A stretch of 35,903 bases of DNA from a gamma proteobacterium symbiont of Ctena orbiculata (lineage in GTDB: Bacteria > Pseudomonadota > Gammaproteobacteria > Chromatiales > Chromatiaceae), in contig QBVD01000067.1 in assembly GCA_003058525.1 (NCBI GenBank), forward strand, positions 1 to 35,903, read 5' to 3'. Numbering within the stretch: the stretch's first letter is position 1; each line of letters begins with the position of its first letter. Position numbers and translations under genes: made by a program. Positions 9,755-18,624 of this stretch are shown here, one piece after another. Under the pieces are notes generated by a model that was not told where the DNA came from, searched no databases, and was given only the letters and a program-made list of their open reading frames with translations.

Positions 9755-10402
9755 ATGGGGAATCATCTATTACCGGGGATAAAAGATGCGATCTGCATCA
9801 CAGCCTGCCTGCCTTTGCTCCAGGCTTGTACGGGTATAGGCGGAGTTTCCGGTGACATGCCGCTTAATGTTGATACTGAACCCAGTGGAGCCACCGTCTA
9901 CGTGATGGGAAAAGCGATCGGTGAAACACCAATCTCAATCCCGCAACAGCAGATCTACCCTGCTGGTTACGATGCCAATAAAGAACCGATGTACGGTACA
10001 CTGTTGATCAGAAAGACGGGGTGTCAGGATCTTAGAAGACGCATCCGCTACCAGGAATTCAACAGCGGGTTGTCGATCGAACTCAACTGTAGCGGAACCC
10101 GGTCAAGCGCCAGCAAACAGGCCTCCCAACCAGCCAAGGCAATGGCTCCTTCAGTTATTTCACAACAAGGCAGGCCACCAACAGCCAAAAACATGGAGGT
10201 GGAGCAAAAGCTTCATTCCGTTACTCAACAGAGTCCCACTCCACGGCATACACCAAAGACTGAAAAAATCGAAGCCGGCAAGCAACCGGCGAATAATACG
10301 GTTAGACAACGCCTGATCCGCATTGATGATCTCAGGCGGGAGGGCTTGATTACGGAAGAGGAGTATCAACAAGCCCGGAAAAATATTCTCGACACATTAT
10401 AA
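9755..10402 (+). CDS. Lipoprotein with PEGA-like domain and C-terminal SHOCT-like motif
   Basis: A 215-residue protein. The N-terminus ends in LLQAC, a lipobox with acylated C25, so it should be anchored to a membrane facing the periplasm or surface. Residues about 36-65 (LNVDTEPSGATVYVMGKAIGETP) resemble a PEGA domain, a small surface beta-domain. A low-complexity Ser/Pro/Gln-rich linker (about 115-180) follows. The last 30 residues, with IDDLRREGLITEEEYQQARKNIL, match the SHOCT pattern of short C-terminal helices found on many otherwise unrelated proteins. A ribosome site AAAGAGGA lies at 9741-9748. The specific function is unknown. Confidence 0.75.
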   Translation: MGNHLLPGIKDAICITACLPLLQACTGIGGVSGDMPLNVDTEPSGATVYVMGKAIGETPISIPQQQIYPAGYDANKEPMYGTLLIRKTGCQDLRRRIRYQEFNSGLSIELNCSGTRSSASKQASQPAKAMAPSVISQQGRPPTAKNMEVEQKLHSVTQQSPTPRHTPKTEKIEAGKQPANNTVRQRLIRIDDLRREGLITEEEYQQARKNILDTL

Positions 10403-10407
10403 GCGGT

Positions 10408-10437
10408 AAAAAAAAGCCGCTGCCTTTTGGCAGCGGC
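10408..10437 (-). terminator. Intrinsic terminator of the cytochrome operon
   Basis: GCCGCTGCC (10416-10424) and GGCAGCGGC (10429-10437) form a perfect 9-bp stem with a TTTT loop. On the minus strand the stem is followed directly by eight T residues (A-run at 10408-10415). It therefore terminates transcription coming from the cytochrome genes at 10464-12462. The plus strand has no T-run, so it is not a good terminator for the lipoprotein gene. Confidence 0.88.
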
Positions 10438-10463
10438 CCTACCCAATTCATTCTATTCGTTAT

Positions 10464-11126
10464 CTAGTAGGTTGATAACAAACGCAGATAACTGACCACT
10501 CCTTCAATTTCCGCTTTTGTGAGCATATCCTTCCAGCCGGGCATCAGCGATTTGCCCGGTGTTCCATGGGTCACGACCTCAACCATGTGGGAGTTGGGGT
10601 GCTTGTTCATTTCAGCACTGTCGGTATGGTCCTTCGGTTGCAGATTCAACACAGCTGCCAGCGGCCCGTCCCCTCTGCCCGAGCGACCGTGACAGGCGGC
10701 GCAGTTGTTGACATAAACCTTCTTCCCCACATCGGGATCCCCTATCAGGGAGTGCTTGGACCTCTGCAGAAAACGGATGTAGGCGACCAGGGAATTGATC
10801 TGATTACCCGGCATGGCCAATCCCCACTGTGGCATGGCACTGGTCCCCGAACCGTGTTTGATAGTGCCCTGTATCATACCAAACAGCTCTCGGTCTGATC
10901 TTTCCGCCGCGCCGTTATCTCCATCGGTCAAGTCGGCAGGCGCCACATCGAGTTTTTTTGCCAAAGGTCCAGTGCCCTTGCCATCTGCTCCATGACAGAG
11001 AAAACAAGACTGATTATAAAGAGTATAGCCCTGATAGGTATCACCCGCGTAAGCAGGGAGTGAAATCAATCCGAATGCGCTAACCAACGCTGCGAATCCA
11101 GCCATTCTAGTAACAATTCTGTTCAT
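10464..11126 (-). CDS. Periplasmic di-haem cytochrome c
   Basis: A 220-residue protein with a signal peptide (1-27, cleavage after AYA) and two c-type haem domains: CFLCH at 41-45 and CAACH at 142-146. Methionines suitable as sixth ligands occur in SAMPQWG (M98) and SLMPGW (M195). The two halves look like a duplicated class I, cytochrome-c4/c553-like unit. It lies 94 bases downstream of the Cyc2-like gene on the same strand and ahead of a strong terminator, so the two are almost certainly one operon. It would then accept electrons in the periplasm from the outer-membrane cytochrome. GAGGA precedes the ATG. Confidence 0.9.
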   Translation of the reverse strand: MNRIVTRMAGFAALVSAFGLISLPAYAGDTYQGYTLYNQSCFLCHGADGKGTGPLAKKLDVAPADLTDGDNGAAERSDRELFGMIQGTIKHGSGTSAMPQWGLAMPGNQINSLVAYIRFLQRSKHSLIGDPDVGKKVYVNNCAACHGRSGRGDGPLAAVLNLQPKDHTDSAEMNKHPNSHMVEVVTHGTPGKSLMPGWKDMLTKAEIEGVVSYLRLLSTY

Positions 11127-11220
11127 GAGTTAATCCTCACTTGGTTCTGTACTGCAATCCACATGCAGAAGAGGCGACTGAGAAGTCGATTCGTTTTTCG
11201 ATTTGTGTGCATGCTGTCCA

Positions 11221-12462
11221 TTAATAGCCGGCAAAGAGTTGGAACAACCATTTGCTGTCACGTTCATTGTCGCGCGCATCAACACCATCACCACTCTCTT
11301 TCACATAGAAAAGTTCAAAACGGATATTTTGAGAGAACAGATAGTTTAAGCCGACTGTGGTGGAATTGAATTCAGAATCCTCTTCCGAACCGTCGTCGAG
11401 AGCACGATAGGCAGCGAAGACATTGGCTTTGTTGGGCAGGATACCCAGTTGAGCAAGAATACCGAACGCCTCGCCATCATCGGTGTTTGTGCAGCCTTCC
11501 AGGAAATGGGACTCATCGGCGGAGCAACTGCCGTAACTGGCATAGATGCCCAACGGCATACTACCCACACTGCCCTGCATCTGGCCATCCACGACCCAGC
11601 CGTCGGTTGCAATCAGGGTCTCGCCACCTGCGCCATCGGCGACTTCCGCATCTCCCGACCAGAGCTGGAATCCGAACCCGGTATCCCAGGATCCGATGAA
11701 CGGGGTGTAGGCAGCGCGCAGGTAGTGAGCCAGCCCGGACGGCTTGACCTCCACGTTATTCTCTTCCCAACCCGGCACCCATGGAGTGTAGTTGATGAAA
11801 AAGTTATGACTCGAGGCAACAAGCGCGATACCGGTAGCCTCGCCACTGCCCAAACCCAGCGCCTGGGCGGCACTGAATCCTGTACGATCCTCAATCGGCC
11901 GTTGTGAGCGCTGGGCGCCGGTATTCAATAACTCAAATCCGTATGCCGATCCCAGGCCATCGGTGGAGAAAGGTATGACACTGAATTGGGTGCCTCCCGC
12001 CTTACCCACGTTGAAATGGACTTTGGTTGAGAGGAAAGAGTTGGCATCGGTCAATCCCAGCTCCATGAGAAAACCGGCATCCTTGGCCAGCTTGCCCCCC
12101 ACCAGGAGAGCCGCTTCGTCCGGCCACTCGATAACACCATAGTCGCTGCCGGCATTGGTGTTGCCGTTGCTCTTTACATAACGCAGCTTGGTTATCACCG
12201 ATGCGTTCAACATCAACGGCAGGGAGATATCATCGCCCTCGATCATGCCCTGACCACCGGTCAGTGTGTAGCCACCTGCCCTGAATGATCTGCCGAACGA
12301 ATTGAGTGTTGGAAAGTGTTGAAAATGACAGGCCGTACAGGGCATGCTTGTCTGGCGTGCGAAAGCGGGCACAGCATCCGCCGGTTGCGGCAGCGCCAGG
12401 CTCCCAATCAGTATCAAGATCCCCATTGCATAGCCATGCAACATCGTGAGTCTATTAGTCAT
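11221..12462 (-). CDS. cyc2: Cyc2-like outer-membrane cytochrome-porin fusion
   Basis: A 413-residue protein with a signal peptide (about 1-30, cleavage near ADA). Right at the mature N-terminus is one haem site, CTACH at 42-46, inside FARQTSMPCTACHFQHFP. About 350 residues follow of alternating, aromatic-edged beta-strand sequence that ends in a barrel-like FQLFAGY. This layout (single N-terminal c-type haem plus a roughly 16-strand porin in one chain) and the wording around the haem are characteristic of Cyc2, the outer-membrane Fe(II) oxidase of iron-oxidising bacteria. Non-iron-oxidisers carry related Cyc2 clusters, so the substrate is inferred. GGAG precedes the ATG. The downstream di-haem cytochrome is the likely partner. 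Confidence 0.75.
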   Translation of the reverse strand: MTNRLTMLHGYAMGILILIGSLALPQPADAVPAFARQTSMPCTACHFQHFPTLNSFGRSFRAGGYTLTGGQGMIEGDDISLPLMLNASVITKLRYVKSNGNTNAGSDYGVIEWPDEAALLVGGKLAKDAGFLMELGLTDANSFLSTKVHFNVGKAGGTQFSVIPFSTDGLGSAYGFELLNTGAQRSQRPIEDRTGFSAAQALGLGSGEATGIALVASSHNFFINYTPWVPGWEENNVEVKPSGLAHYLRAAYTPFIGSWDTGFGFQLWSGDAEVADGAGGETLIATDGWVVDGQMQGSVGSMPLGIYASYGSCSADESHFLEGCTNTDDGEAFGILAQLGILPNKANVFAAYRALDDGSEEDSEFNSTTVGLNYLFSQNIRFELFYVKESGDGVDARDNERDSKWLFQLFAGY

Positions 12463-13291
12463 ACGCTTCTCCAGAATGTGAAAGCTTAATTTAACTCAGT
12501 CGTTTGTTACTGCTTTGCGGTCATTCCGAACACGACAGCGTCCAGCGCCGCCGATTTTCCCATAACCAGTCAACGACCCCATTTAGTTGGATGCCACGCA
12601 ATAAACCAAATTACGCAATATCGCATCCGAGTGGTGATGGTGAAGGGTGGTGAAATATTTGACTTAACCGGAAGGTGGTGACTGAGTACGGCCGGCAGAC
12701 TGCCTACGAAGCCGGCCAGTACATAGCACCATGTCTACACGATTGGCGTTGTTGTTATATCCAGCGTGGCGTACAAACCTGCCAATGAACCGGTTTCACT
12801 TGAGATATCGGAGTCAAGCCCCATCCAGCTTGAAGAGCGAGCACACCAAAATCCAAAAAGAACCCCTTAAAAACCCGATTCATTAGCAGAAGAGCCTGCA
12901 CACCTACCGGTCACCCCATCCATTCTCCAATTTTTATATTACTGAGAGCTAAGATTCGTGAAGCAGCCTCAGTAGAGCTCAAAAATTTCTTGGTTTTTCT
13001 CGAGTTATGTTAATTCTTAAGAAACCCTTCGCACAAACATTACCCTATGGTAATCATGTTTATTATGGGTAATTACCCTACTTTCTCATATTAGTAATTA
13101 CCCACATTGAGGTGGTGGAACGGCTGGGGTGACCACCCGCATGATCGGACAAAGTCATAATATTTCACACTCTGAACTGGACTGGCACCTGCTCTTCGGA
13201 GACCATTGCAAGTAGAGATCGATACGGTTTGCATCGCAAACTTGTTGCTGGAGCGCCGTTTTCGCAGGACAGGCTGAGAATCCGAAATCAG
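12463..13291. other. Large intergenic region with a GGTAATTACC-type operator cluster
   Basis: About 830 bases without a supported gene, between the divergent Cyc2-like gene and a small membrane-protein gene. At 13040-13103 a motif family is repeated. TTACC-CTAT-GGTAA lies at 13040-13053, the perfect palindrome GGGTAATTACCC at 13067-13078 and another GTAATTACCC at 13094-13103. They are spaced by about 27 bases from start to start. Elsewhere, GGCCGGC (12690-12696) pairs with GCCGGCC (12711-12717). The rest shows no coding signal. Confidence 0.5.
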
Positions 13292-14079: not shown

Positions 14080-14301
14080 TTTCTACCCCCAGAGCTTTGT
14101 CATACTCACTCACCACTATTGCCCGCTTACCTGATAGATAAATTGCGCGGCACACTTTCGAAGGTTGGCTTGTTGTCAGTCAACTCATCTCCCCCATGGC
14201 CGGTTATACTTCTAGAAGGGAGAGGTGAGCCGCTTTGTATCTGGTTGGTTAACTTGCGGCGCCTGCACTCTCTGAGTTGATCATTCTGGCTTCAAGGAGT
14301 G

Positions 14302-15042
14302 ATGAAAGACTTGTTCCCACCGAACCCAGCAACGCAACAGACGATCACCCTGCGGGGCCGGTCTCTTACCAAGACCTACCACACCGGAGCGGTGGACGTA
14401 CACGCCTTGCGTGGGGTGGATATATCCCTGTTTGAGGGGGAACTGGTGGTATTGCTGGGCCCCTCCGGCAGCGGCAAATCGACCCTGCTGAATATTCTGG
14501 GCGGTCTCGATACCCCGAGCAGCGGAGAGGTAAGCTTTCGCGATCTGGATGTCACTTCAGGGGATGAGTCACTGCTTACCCGTTACCGGCGTGATCACGT
14601 GGGCTTCGTGTTTCAGTTCTACAATCTCATACCAAGCCTTACGGCACGTGAGAATGTGGCCCTGGTGACCGAGATTGCCGTCGACCCCATGGTGCCTGCG
14701 GATGCGCTTTCACTGGTCGGACTGGGTGAAAGGCTTGATCACTTCCCGGCGCAGCTCTCCGGCGGCGAACAGCAACGGGTGGCCATCGCCCGGGCCATCG
14801 CCAAGCGCCCCGATATCCTGTTGTGCGATGAACCCACCGGCGCCCTGGACAGCCATACCGGAATCCTTGTGCTCGAGGCCATTGAGCGAGTCAACAGGGA
14901 ATTGGGCACGACCACGGCGGTGATTACCCATAATACCGTGATCGGCAACATGGCCGATCGGGTACTTCACTTCGGTGACGGCCAGGTCATCGACAGTGTC
15001 AGCAATCCCAGCCGCCAGCCGGCAAGGGAGCTGAGTTGGTGA
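14302..15042 (+). CDS. ABC exporter ATPase (MacB/LolD type)
   Basis: A 246-residue ATP-binding subunit. Walker A is GPSGSGKST (about 54-62), the ABC signature is LSGGEQQR (about 152-159), Walker B is [12 protein letters not shown], and a later ITHN carries the switch histidine. The wording ([33 protein letters not shown]) is that of the MacB/LolD group, which works with FtsX-type permeases for mechanotransmission rather than classic substrate import. AAGGAG overlaps the first codons, and a GTG at 14299 is an alternative start. The permease gene begins five bases after the stop. Confidence 0.88.
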
Positions 15043-15046
15043 CATC

Positions 15047-17410
15047 ATGCGCGCATTGAATCTGAAACTGCTGCGTAACCTGTGGAAACTGCGCGGTCAG
15101 GTACTGGCCATTGCTGTGGTAATCGCCTCTGGCGTGGCGGTACTGGTGATGTCTCTCTCCGCCCAGCAGGCCCTGCAGGACACCGCAGACGCCTATTACG
15201 AGCGACAACGCTTTGCAGAAGTCTTCAGCAACGTGAAACGCGCTCCACTCAGACTGGTCGAACGCATCAGTACCATCCCCGGTGTGCGCTCGGTTGAAGC
15301 ACGAATCAAGCAGTTCGCCACACTCTCCATCGAGGGATTTGAAGAGCCGGTGATCGGTCAACTGGTCTCCATCCCCGAACAGGGTGAGCCCCGCCTGAAT
15401 CGACTGGTACTGCGCAGCGGGCGCCTGGTCACCGCGGGTCACCCCGACGAAGCTGTGCTTAGCGAACCCTTCGCCGAGGCGCATGACCTGCAACCGGGGG
15501 ACCGACTGCAGGCGTTGATGAACGGCAATCAACGCACTCTCACGGTGGTCGGTATCGCCCTTTCCCCGGAATTCATCTACGCCATCGGGCCAGGGGCCCT
15601 GACTCCCGACGATAAGCGCTACGGCATTATCTGGCTCGGTCAGGAGGCGATGGCTGCCGCCTACGACCTCGACGGCGCCTTCAACGACTTGAGTCTCGGT
15701 CTGCTTCACGACACCAATCCTGAGCAGGTAATCGAACGACTCGACCGTCTGCTCGAGCGCTACGGCAGCCAAGGTGCGATTGCACGCAAGGATCAGATCT
15801 CGAACTGGTTTCTGATGAACGAAATCAAACAGTTGAAAAACATGTCGACGATCCTGCCGATCATCTTCCTCGCCGTGGCCGCCTTTCTCAGCAATATGGT
15901 ATTGAGCCGGCTCATCGCCACCGACCGCAGCGAGATCGGTTTGATGAAGGCCTTTGGTTACAGCAACTGGCAGGTGGGCTGGCACTACACCAAGCTGGCT
16001 ATGGCGATGGCTAGTGTCGGGATCCTGCTGGGTTGGCTCCTCGGCGCCTGGCTGGGGCGGGTCAACACTGAGCTCTACGCAGAGTTTTTCCGCTTTCCGT
16101 TGCTCATATTCCGCCCGCATGCAGGTGTTTTCGCCATTGGTGCCATCGTCAGCCTGATCGCTGCCCTGGCAGGCAGTCTGGGTTCGGTGCGCTACGCCGC
16201 GATCCTGCCTCCGGCCGAGGCGATGCTGCCGCCCGCACCCCCGATGTTCCGCAAGACCGCACTTTCCAAAAGCCGTACCGGACACATGTTGGACCAGCCG
16301 ACCCGGATCATTCTGAGACAGATTTTCCGATCACCGATCCGGGCCTTGCTCACCAGCTTGGGTATCGCCCTGTCGGTGGCGGTGATGATAATGGCGCTGC
16401 AGTGGATCGATTCCATCGAAAAGATCGTCCAGGTCTACTTTCACGATGCCCAGCGACAGAGCATGACAGTAGGTCTGGTGGAGACCCAATCGGACACCGT
16501 CCTGGACGAGTTCCGACGCATGCCCGGGGTGTTGGCTGCCGAACCGATGCGTGCAGTAAGCGCCGACTTCCTGGTTGGCAATCGCAGCCATCGGGGCGCC
16601 ATAGAGGGTGTATTGCCGAACCCCCATCTGCAGCGTGTTTACGATGCCGGCGGGGAGGTACTCCAAGTGCCGCCGGACGGCCTGATCTTTTCAACCAGAC
16701 TGGCGTCGAAACTGGAGGTGGGGATAGGCGACACTGTCCGGGTCGAGGTTCTGCAGGATCGTCGCCCCAAGCGGGAAATCCCAGTAGTGGACCTGTTTGA
16801 AACCTACATGGGTACTCCCGCCTATATGCATATTCAAGCCCTGAACCGTTTGATGGATCAACGGCCCAGCCTGGAAGCGGTCAACCTGCTGGTGGACAAG
16901 CATCAGCTCTCTTCCCTCTACCAACGCCTGAAATCGCTCCCCAAGGTCTCGGCAGTGGTGCTGAAGGATGCGGCAGTGAAAGAGTTCAACGACACCATGG
17001 CCGAAACCATCATGATCTATATCACCTTCTTCGCCGCCTTTGCCTGTGCGCTGGGATTCGGTGTGGTCTACAACAGTACCCGCATCGCCCTGTCCGAACG
17101 CGGGCGTGAACTGGCCACGCTGAGAGTGCTGGGATTCCATCGCGGCGAGATCTCCTACATCCTTTTGGGTGAGGCGGCATTGCTGATTCTTGTCGGACTT
17201 CCCTTGGGCTGTTTCGTGGGGCACGGCCTGGGTTGGGTGATGACCAGCGCCATGGACTCCGAACTCTACCGCATTCCCCTTGTCATCAAGGCCGCCACCG
17301 ACGCAACAGCGGTCCTGGTCACCCTCGGCGCCACCGCCTTTTCGGCAGCAGTGGTCAGACGCAGGCTCGACCATCTCGATCTGATTGCAGTACTTAAGAC
17401 ACGTGAGTGA
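15047..17410 (+). CDS. ABC exporter permease with two FtsX domains
   Basis: A 787-residue inner-membrane protein with an apparent 4+4 membrane-helix plan: helices near 17-38, 265-290, 318-342, 360-385, 430-452, 662-685, 708-735 and 752-775. Two large periplasmic domains lie after helices 1 and 5. Both halves end in the FtsX-like three-helix block (for example ALGFGVVYNSTRIALSERGRELATLRVLGF). It pairs with the ATPase just upstream and the adaptor just downstream, and overlaps the latter's possible GTG start (GTGA). The transported substrate is unknown. Export of a lipid, peptide or small molecule, or lipoprotein handling, are all possible. Confidence 0.85.
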   Translation: MRALNLKLLRNLWKLRGQVLAIAVVIASGVAVLVMSLSAQQALQDTADAYYERQRFAEVFSNVKRAPLRLVERISTIPGVRSVEARIKQFATLSIEGFEEPVIGQLVSIPEQGEPRLNRLVLRSGRLVTAGHPDEAVLSEPFAEAHDLQPGDRLQALMNGNQRTLTVVGIALSPEFIYAIGPGALTPDDKRYGIIWLGQEAMAAAYDLDGAFNDLSLGLLHDTNPEQVIERLDRLLERYGSQGAIARKDQISNWFLMNEIKQLKNMSTILPIIFLAVAAFLSNMVLSRLIATDRSEIGLMKAFGYSNWQVGWHYTKLAMAMASVGILLGWLLGAWLGRVNTELYAEFFRFPLLIFRPHAGVFAIGAIVSLIAALAGSLGSVRYAAILPPAEAMLPPAPPMFRKTALSKSRTGHMLDQPTRIILRQIFRSPIRALLTSLGIALSVAVMIMALQWIDSIEKIVQVYFHDAQRQSMTVGLVETQSDTVLDEFRRMPGVLAAEPMRAVSADFLVGNRSHRGAIEGVLPNPHLQRVYDAGGEVLQVPPDGLIFSTRLASKLEVGIGDTVRVEVLQDRRPKREIPVVDLFETYMGTPAYMHIQALNRLMDQRPSLEAVNLLVDKHQLSSLYQRLKSLPKVSAVVLKDAAVKEFNDTMAETIMIYITFFAAFACALGFGVVYNSTRIALSERGRELATLRVLGFHRGEISYILLGEAALLILVGLPLGCFVGHGLGWVMTSAMDSELYRIPLVIKAATDATAVLVTLGATAFSAAVVRRRLDHLDLIAVLKTRE

Positions 17411-17415
17411 GAGAC

Positions 17416-18624
17416 ATGAACGCATATTGGAAACGCATACTGTTATGGAGTCTGCTGAGCCTGATCCTGATAGGTACACTGGTATGGGCCTTCATCCCCA
17501 AACCGATCCCGGTGGATCTGCTCACCCTGAGCCCCGGCGAACTGGTGGTGACCGTGGATGAAGAGGGTGAGACCCGGGTAGAGGACGTGTTCGTGTTGTC
17601 GGCCCCGATCAGCGGCAGGGCAATGCGTATCGATGCGGAAGTAGGCGATGAAGTCGTCGCGTCAGAGACCCTGATAGCGGAGATCGAGCCCATCGACCCG
17701 ACCCTGCTCGATCCTCGTAGCGAAGCCCAGGCCAGGGCCGATATCCGCGCGGCCGAAGCGAACCTGATACTTGCCGAAGCGACAGTGAAGGAAGCCAGGG
17801 TTGAACTCGCGTTCGCCCTCAGTGAACTGAAACGGGCACGCAGCCTGCGCCAGGAGGCCGTGATCTCGGAACGGGAGCTGGAGGTGGCGGAGCGCACCCA
17901 CCAGACCCGCCAGGCGGCATTGGAAACCGCCATCGCCACCCGCCAGGCACGCCAGGCGGAACTGGAAAGGGCACGGGCACAACTGATCTCCCCCGTTGAG
18001 ACACGGAACAACTCTGAGGCTTGCCAATGTGTACCGATCAAGGCACCCGTGAATGGCCGAATCCTGAAGATCCTGCACAAGAGCGAGGGGGTGGTTAACG
18101 CCGGTGAACCACTGGTGGAGATAGGTGACCCAACCGAACTGGAGATCGTCGCTGATCTGCTCTCTTCAGATGCGGTCAAGGTTCAACCCGGACAGCAGGT
18201 GATCATAGAAAACTGGGGGGGTGAAACCGATCTGGCGGGTAAAGTACGCCGGGTGGAACCCTTCGGTTTCACCAAGGTCTCGGCCCTGGGCATCGAAGAG
18301 CAGCGGGTGAATGTGATCATCGATTTCACCTCTGCGAAGGAAGCGTGGTCGCGCATCGCCCACGGCTATCAGGTTGATGTGCGCATTGTCCTGTGGCGCG
18401 GCAGCGGTGTGCTCAAACTACCCTTGACCGCCTTGTTCAGAAATGGCGATGAGTGGGCGGTATTCGTGGCGCATGAAGGCAAAGCAAGACAACGCCGGGT
18501 CACACTGGGGAAACGTACCGGCTTGGAGGCTGAAGTCCTTTCAGGACTATCAACCGGTGAACGCGTGGTTGTGCACCCTGGCGACAAGATTGCGGAGGGA
18601 ATCGAAATCGAGGCCAGGAACTAA
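17416..18624 (+). CDS. HlyD/MacA-type periplasmic adaptor of the ABC exporter
   Basis: A 402-residue protein with one N-terminal membrane anchor (about 7-27). A lipoyl/barrel-sandwich half follows (about 55-90, LSAPISGRAMRIDAEVGDEVV), then a long coiled-coil hairpin (about 97-200, Ala/Glu/Arg-rich) and the second lipoyl half (CVPIKAPVNGRILKILHKSEGVVNAGEPLVEIGD). Beta-barrel regions complete it. This is the standard plan of membrane-fusion proteins that link an inner-membrane ABC permease to an outer-membrane channel. No TolC-type channel gene is present in the window. A GTG at 17407 overlapping the permease stop is an alternative start, and ATG 17416 follows GTGAGAGAC. Confidence 0.85.
   Translation: MNAYWKRILLWSLLSLILIGTLVWAFIPKPIPVDLLTLSPGELVVTVDEEGETRVEDVFVLSAPISGRAMRIDAEVGDEVVASETLIAEIEPIDPTLLDPRSEAQARADIRAAEANLILAEATVKEARVELAFALSELKRARSLRQEAVISERELEVAERTHQTRQAALETAIATRQARQAELERARAQLISPVETRNNSEACQCVPIKAPVNGRILKILHKSEGVVNAGEPLVEIGDPTELEIVADLLSSDAVKVQPGQQVIIENWGGETDLAGKVRRVEPFGFTKVSALGIEEQRVNVIIDFTSAKEAWSRIAHGYQVDVRIVLWRGSGVLKLPLTALFRNGDEWAVFVAHEGKARQRRVTLGKRTGLEAEVLSGLSTGERVVVHPGDKIAEGIEIEARN

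Follow-up and report, generated by a model that had tools for sequence, protein, structure and literature searches.

The window, that is, the whole stretch of 35,903 nucleotides analysed here, belongs to the genus Ca. Thiodiazotropha, sulfur-oxidising symbionts of lucinid clams. Two co-directional genes on its minus strand, separated by 94 bases (11127-11220), had been read in a preliminary description, made from the sequence alone, as a Cyc2-like fused cytochrome-porin and its di-haem partner; both open reading frames were found as described and the family call is right, relatives sharing the Cyc2 plan. The best named match of the window Cyc2 is that of Ca. Thiodiazotropha endolucinida (L033), at 98% protein identity. 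Both genes are presumably co-transcribed and end at the strong terminator noted before, a hairpin with a T run, the whole lying 23 bases beyond the di-haem stop codon (Table 1). The terminator scan returned 3 terminator-like sites versus 2.1 (s.d. 1.8) in shuffled sequences, so that it is the length of the stem, not the site count, that stands out. Upstream of cyc2, the scan listed no sigma-70-like site in 12463-12800. An ABC gene accompanies the unit in 9 of 10 genus loci compared (78-97%, best segment) and is absent near the unit of L037, suggesting a mostly settled chromosomal place.

Table 1 Features of the cyc2/di-haem locus and its surroundings (positions in the window)
Feature	Position	Strand	Basis or remark
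cyc2, fused monohaem cytochrome-porin, 413 residues	11221..12462	-	ORF, Cyc2 motifs, barrel model, homologues
Probable signal peptide, residues 1-30, cleavage likely after ADA	12373..12462	-	Sequence; model helix 2-23
AVPAFARQT, Cyc2 motif AXPXFAR[Q/K][T/Y]	12349..12375	-	Sequence compared with the motif of PMC8406198
CTACH haem attachment site, residues 42-46	12325..12339	-	Sequence; alignment A3
PTL, PXL motif, 4 residues past CXXCH	12304..12312	-	Sequence; alignment A3
Predicted 16-strand beta-barrel, residues 86-413	11224..12207	-	AlphaFold2; strands counted from DSSP list
Di-haem cytochrome c, 220 residues, two class I domains, probable periplasmic electron carrier	10464..11126	-	Pfam, model
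First haem site CFLCH, residues 41-45	10992..11006	-	Alignment A4; nearly invariant M98 is the probable ligand
Second haem site CAACH, residues 142-146	10689..10703	-	Alignment A4; invariant M195 is the probable ligand
Intrinsic terminator 3' of the di-haem gene	10413..10440	-	12-pair stem, loop of 4, T run
PEGA-like lipoprotein gene, facing the pair	9755-10402		Name read from sequence alone
ABC transporter set, other side of the pair	14299-18624		Name read from sequence alone

Motifs and predicted folds of the two proteins

The larger protein carries the Cyc2 signature, which places AXPXFAR[Q/K][T/Y] just before CXXCH (PMC8406198). AVPAFARQT precedes CTACH by 3 residues, and CTACH is followed by FQHF and PTL as the PXL element. 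The signal peptide and aromatic C-terminus described earlier were recovered as a hydrophobic stretch ending ADA/VPAF and the terminal residues KWLFQLFAGY, and CTACH is the only CXXCH in a protein whose 413 residues compare with the at least 365 of Cyc2. The strict motif occurs in 51 of the 77 tree relatives (hand count). C42, C45, H46, P51, and L53 are invariant across the 43 rows of alignment A3, which holds the window protein and 42 of 80 loci chosen for length and spread (L073 left out), and haem and motif residues are likewise invariant in 12 Cyc2 sequences of the genus. A plain porin with a chance CXXCH was considered and ruled out by the invariance of C42, C45, and H46. Beyond H46, no Met or His is invariant or nearly so in A3; neither residue therefore serves as a conserved distal haem ligand among these sequences.

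The AlphaFold2 model of Cyc2 (mean pLDDT 77.9, pTM 0.78) predicts a 16-strand barrel of the OprO/OprP type, and OprP and OprO are its best PDB fold matches. Structure prediction had been proposed as a check on the Cyc2 call, and neither outcome named beforehand as refuting that call (no beta-barrel, or best matches to a non-Cyc2 family lacking the haem plug) was seen; the plug region, computed without haem and with pLDDT below 50 at residues 24-32 and 41-48, is too poorly modelled to judge. No match came from searching PDB sequences with either the protein or its profile, and among Pfam and NCBIfam models no Cyc2 model matched, Pfam returning only a sub-threshold Porin_4 and NCBIfam one unrelated weak match.

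CFLCH and CAACH bear out the di-haem nature of the smaller protein, which matches PF13442 (6.1e-25) and PF00034 (1.6e-22) over two stretches each and is modelled at pLDDT 85.1. Conservation of M98 and M195 in alignment A4 (17 rows, the window and 16 of 29 di-haem neighbours) suggests two His/Met haems. Among PDB sequences it matches CcoP-type subunits best (2e-17) and cytochrome c4 less well (6.6e-5), and its best fold match is the Kuenenia cytochrome 6h5l_B.

Distribution, selection and family placement

A Cyc2 homologue was found in 18 of 21 genus genomes, the window's own included, and in all 18 a di-haem gene (at least 59% identity) adjoins cyc2. The three remaining genomes (G005, G014, G017) gave no di-haem match at 1e-20, and cyc2 had no match in 14 genomes from elsewhere in the family (G021-G034), making the unit patchy. 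Pairs with dS between 0.01 and 2 yielded a median dN/dS of 0.065 for cyc2 (31 of 120 pairs usable, 16 chosen symbiont sequences) and 0.15 for the di-haem gene (26 of 66 pairs, 12 chosen sequences), indicating that both genes are maintained under purifying selection. Given these ratios and the 18 genus homologues, cyc2 is no chance reading frame. Two lucinid-symbiont copies of cyc2 are broken beside open di-haem genes, L036 (678-1943) by an internal stop and L045 (4974-6238) by a change of frame; as both come from draft assemblies, the breaks may be errors.

Beyond the genus, scanning GTDB species genomes with two peptide patterns confirmed 401 loci. The 80 most similar to the window Cyc2 were retained, and counts over these 80 consequently lean to near kin. 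A di-haem homologue lies directly downstream in 29 of the best 80 of 401 loci, from lucinid symbionts, tubeworm symbionts (Lamellibrachia, Escarpia), Thiorhodococcus mannitoliphagus, and uncultured gammaproteobacteria; weak matches to other cytochromes at L093 and L094 (E 9e-6 and 2e-9) were not counted. No di-haem homologue was found in three Gallionella and three Mariprofundaceae loci, L090 spanning only 1.4 kb downstream. In the purple sulfur bacterium T. mannitoliphagus DSM 18266 (L053) the unit is present at 51% and 40% identity, and the Cyc2 motif ends RQV, not RQT.

The Cyc2 tree comprises 78 rows, without L036 (internal stop), L045 (two frames), and L088 (fragment). Branches with 100/100 support separate 58 rows, including the window, from 20 other Cyc2-like rows. 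The larger side also holds Gallionella, three Mariprofundaceae rows, one other Zetaproteobacteria row, other Gammaproteobacteria, Nitrospirota, Lambdaproteobacteria, Sulfurovum, and 'Deltaproteobacteria', the smaller one Bacteroidota, Gemmatimonadota, Thiogranum, Nitrosomonas, and others, a taxon mix resembling the Cyc2 tree described in PMC12442345. The window Cyc2 probably belongs to Cluster 1, an assignment kept at that strength since the tree, which is midpoint-rooted, holds neither named cluster 2 or 3 references nor a Chlorobi row and since the program warns of long branches meeting, L092 included. Of the 28 usable partner-bearing rows, 27 (the window among them) form one clade (99/96) free of any other row, and the 28th, L055, falls just outside it beside L061 and L063, loci where no partner was found. 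Partner-bearing rows thus make up nearly a single clade and none belongs to Gallionella or Mariprofundaceae loci, which suggests that the partner marks a Cyc2 subclade.

Relatives of the di-haem protein also accompany another type of cytochrome in the genus. An 11-haem cytochrome gene (haems counted in two genomes) is present at no less than 78% identity in 11 of 21 genus genomes, and in all 11 a second di-haem gene (38-42% identity) lies within about 1.2 kb of it. In G006 and G017 the 11-haem protein has no relatives closer than 42-44%, and no di-haem match lies beside these; in the window's genome the 11-haem protein has no match at 1e-20. The Uet-like cluster was read from loci L113, L114, and L117 (G009, G015). 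In G015 the row runs NHL, 4-haem, 3-haem, 3-haem, a 677-residue ORF without Pfam match, NHL, 11-haem, di-haem; in G009, represented by the second half only, a mono-haem ORF on the other strand precedes the di-haem gene. Two Uet-side di-haem copies nest among Cyc2-side ones in a di-haem tree with several long branches. One carrier family for two unlike outer-membrane conduits would fit a periplasmic adaptor. The Uet-side proteins (L113 4338-5534, L114 4342-5499) have about 170 extra C-terminal residues; the L113 extension resembles a histidine phosphatase by our own reading, and in the L114 copy Pfam matched cytochromes only.

Proposed function and alternatives

We consider it rather probable that the unit consists of an iron-oxidising porin of the outer membrane and a di-haem periplasmic carrier of its electrons. 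Cyc2 would form a 16-strand outer-membrane porin, plugged at its periplasmic end by its own N-terminal c-haem domain; dissolved Fe2+, or another small reduced donor, would reduce this haem after entering the pore from outside. The co-encoded cytochrome c, with two probably His/Met-ligated haems, would meet Cyc2 physically, accept the electron in the periplasm and pass it to an inner-membrane acceptor of the respiratory chain, downhill to an oxidase or uphill to bc1. Such a unit would be of use chiefly at interfaces of Fe(II) and oxygen, for example in sediment or around plant roots, and less inside the clam. The minimal two-protein wire proposed in the preliminary description overstates the case, as one haem cannot span the outer membrane. 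Support for the unit comes from the Cyc2 motifs, single CXXCH and length, from the window's place on the Gallionella and Mariprofundaceae side of the tree, from the constant adjacency of the di-haem gene in the genus, from the low dN/dS, from the OprP/OprO fold matches, the same templates as published for the Cyc2 of Mariprofundus ferrooxydans PV-1, and from the di-haem paralogue near the 11-haem gene in 11 of 11 genomes, which fits a carrier for outer-membrane conduits. Counted against it are the low pLDDT of the plug region, the long branches, the two broken genus copies, and the exceptions G006 and G017.

The donor is where the nearest alternative departs: with the same protein and fold, electrons could have a different origin outside the cell (reduced sulfur species, reduced organics or minerals, or another cell), or flow outward as a respiratory relief valve. 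We rate this as unlikely. The host group is known for sulfur oxidation, further Cyc2 functions are allowed by Keffer et al., in Ca. Tenderia electrophaga cyc2 responds to the potential of the electrode (PMC5371394), and the direction of Mtr/Mto systems has been discussed as reversible (PMC10734462); yet the three biochemically tested Cyc2 proteins, one per cluster, all oxidise Fe(II) (Keffer et al.), and the iron-oxidiser lineages Gallionella and Mariprofundaceae lie on the window's side of the tree. That Fe(II) is oxidised for detoxification or surface iron handling, not energy, appears improbable: the di-haem gene that adjoins cyc2 in all 18 genus genomes holding it suggests that the electrons are put to use, against a suggestion of this kind for vent-shrimp epibionts (cited in PMC5566968) and a genome with one Cyc2 and no MtrB/PioB match. 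The search for that porin (PF11854) was negative in the window's genome at E 0.001, leaving no MtoAB/PioAB system recognised; its control set of 14 genomes held no strong positive and gave one match (Caulobacter), below the cut-off. One Paired_CXXCH match was found in the same genome.

A relic or neutral symbiont gene, kept by recent descent only, is highly improbable. It could draw on the internal stop in one and the split frame in another of the 18 genus homologues, and on the absence of the unit from 3 of 21 genomes, but the median dN/dS of 0.065 across the 16 symbiont copies and the residues invariant in 12 genus sequences speak against it.

We tentatively put forward a wider reading: lucinid and tubeworm symbionts, known for sulfur oxidation, may be facultative Fe(II)-oxidising or electron-drawing bacteria when free-living, via a Cyc2 subclade that has a di-haem carrier of its own. 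This carrier may be an interchangeable periplasmic adaptor, coupled in the same genus also to a second, Uet-like multihaem conduit. Cyc2 is a leading marker of neutrophilic iron oxidation, its function outside known iron oxidisers is unproved, and most of its sequences come from uncultured organisms (Keffer et al.). A compact conserved pair in symbionts and in the named strain DSM 18266 offers a direct test of outside-electron uptake by sulfur-oxidising symbionts, and identifies a likely acceptor in the periplasm, where the Cyc2 pathway is poorly known.

Comparison with known systems

The suggestion that Cyc2 extends the metabolism of a sulfur oxidiser holds as potential and fails as novelty. 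Tamre and Fournier (2025) reported Cyc2 orthologues in lucinid endosymbionts, used them as a clock calibration, and stated that iron oxidation is not demonstrated in these bacteria (PMC12442345), and He et al. (2017) had described Cyc2-like genes in Riftia, Tevnia, and Ridgeia symbionts (PMC5566968). The window cyc2 is very probably the gene of Tamre and Fournier, because its genome contains one Cyc2-like match (profile A2, E up to 10); that the published gene is another paralogue was considered in the light of this single match. Host group and family agree, whereas the accessible text of PMC12442345 describes no di-haem partner or gene order. In the open-access papers searched, we found neither the di-haem partnership nor a Uet-like cluster in Thiodiazotropha. 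The presence of cyc2 in lucinid symbionts is therefore already known; what is new is the pairing of the two genes as one unit, together with the proposed sharing of the adaptor.

Two further points speak against the iron reading. In mangrove sediment with prominent Thiodiazotropha rbcL, abundance and expression of cyc2 were low, its role was judged minor, and its transcripts came from Gammaproteobacteria only (PMC12400630). Many Cyc2 carriers are not known as iron oxidisers (Keffer et al.). At the roots of Spartina, Ca. Thiodiazotropha is also active and has microaerophilic oxidases (PMC11059160). Fe(II) could come into contact with oxygen in such a setting, a connection with Cyc2 that is drawn by us. 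Among highly expressed genes of Ca. T. endolucinida are a 'Cytochrome c-like domain superfamily' and a 'Gram-negative outer membrane porin' gene (PMC13137333); with gene numbers as widely separated as 3703 and 223, these two are unlikely to be the cyc2/di-haem neighbours.

The congener row ending in the di-haem paralogue resembles parts of the Uet pathway of Ca. Tenderia electrophaga (PMC10734462), although no peptidylprolyl isomerase was recognised in the row by reading, without a dedicated search; the pathway differs from the window in its conduit, which is not Cyc2, and in the 11-haem protein, for which the window's genome gave no match. In the rus operon of Acidithiobacillus ferrooxidans (cyc2-cyc1-cup-cox-rus), cyc2 is likewise followed by a periplasmic cytochrome, cyc1, of the c4 type (PMC10654088), whereas the window's partner is nearer to CcoP-type subunits than to cytochrome c4, and no cox, cupredoxin, or rusticyanin genes were recognised by eye among the window ORFs. 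Also close are the Cluster 1 Cyc2 proteins of neutrophilic iron oxidisers, those of M. ferrooxydans PV-1, for which Fe(II) oxidation in vitro has been reported, and of Gallionellaceae, alike in signature motifs, single haem, and OprP/OprO-like barrel. Gallionella rows show full-length homology to the window Cyc2; best-segment identity is 37% for the Gallionella locus nearest to it and 27-28% for those of Mariprofundaceae. The window's cyc2 differs in having a di-haem neighbour, no homologue of which was found in the Gallionella and Mariprofundaceae loci, and a host known for the oxidation of sulfur, not iron.
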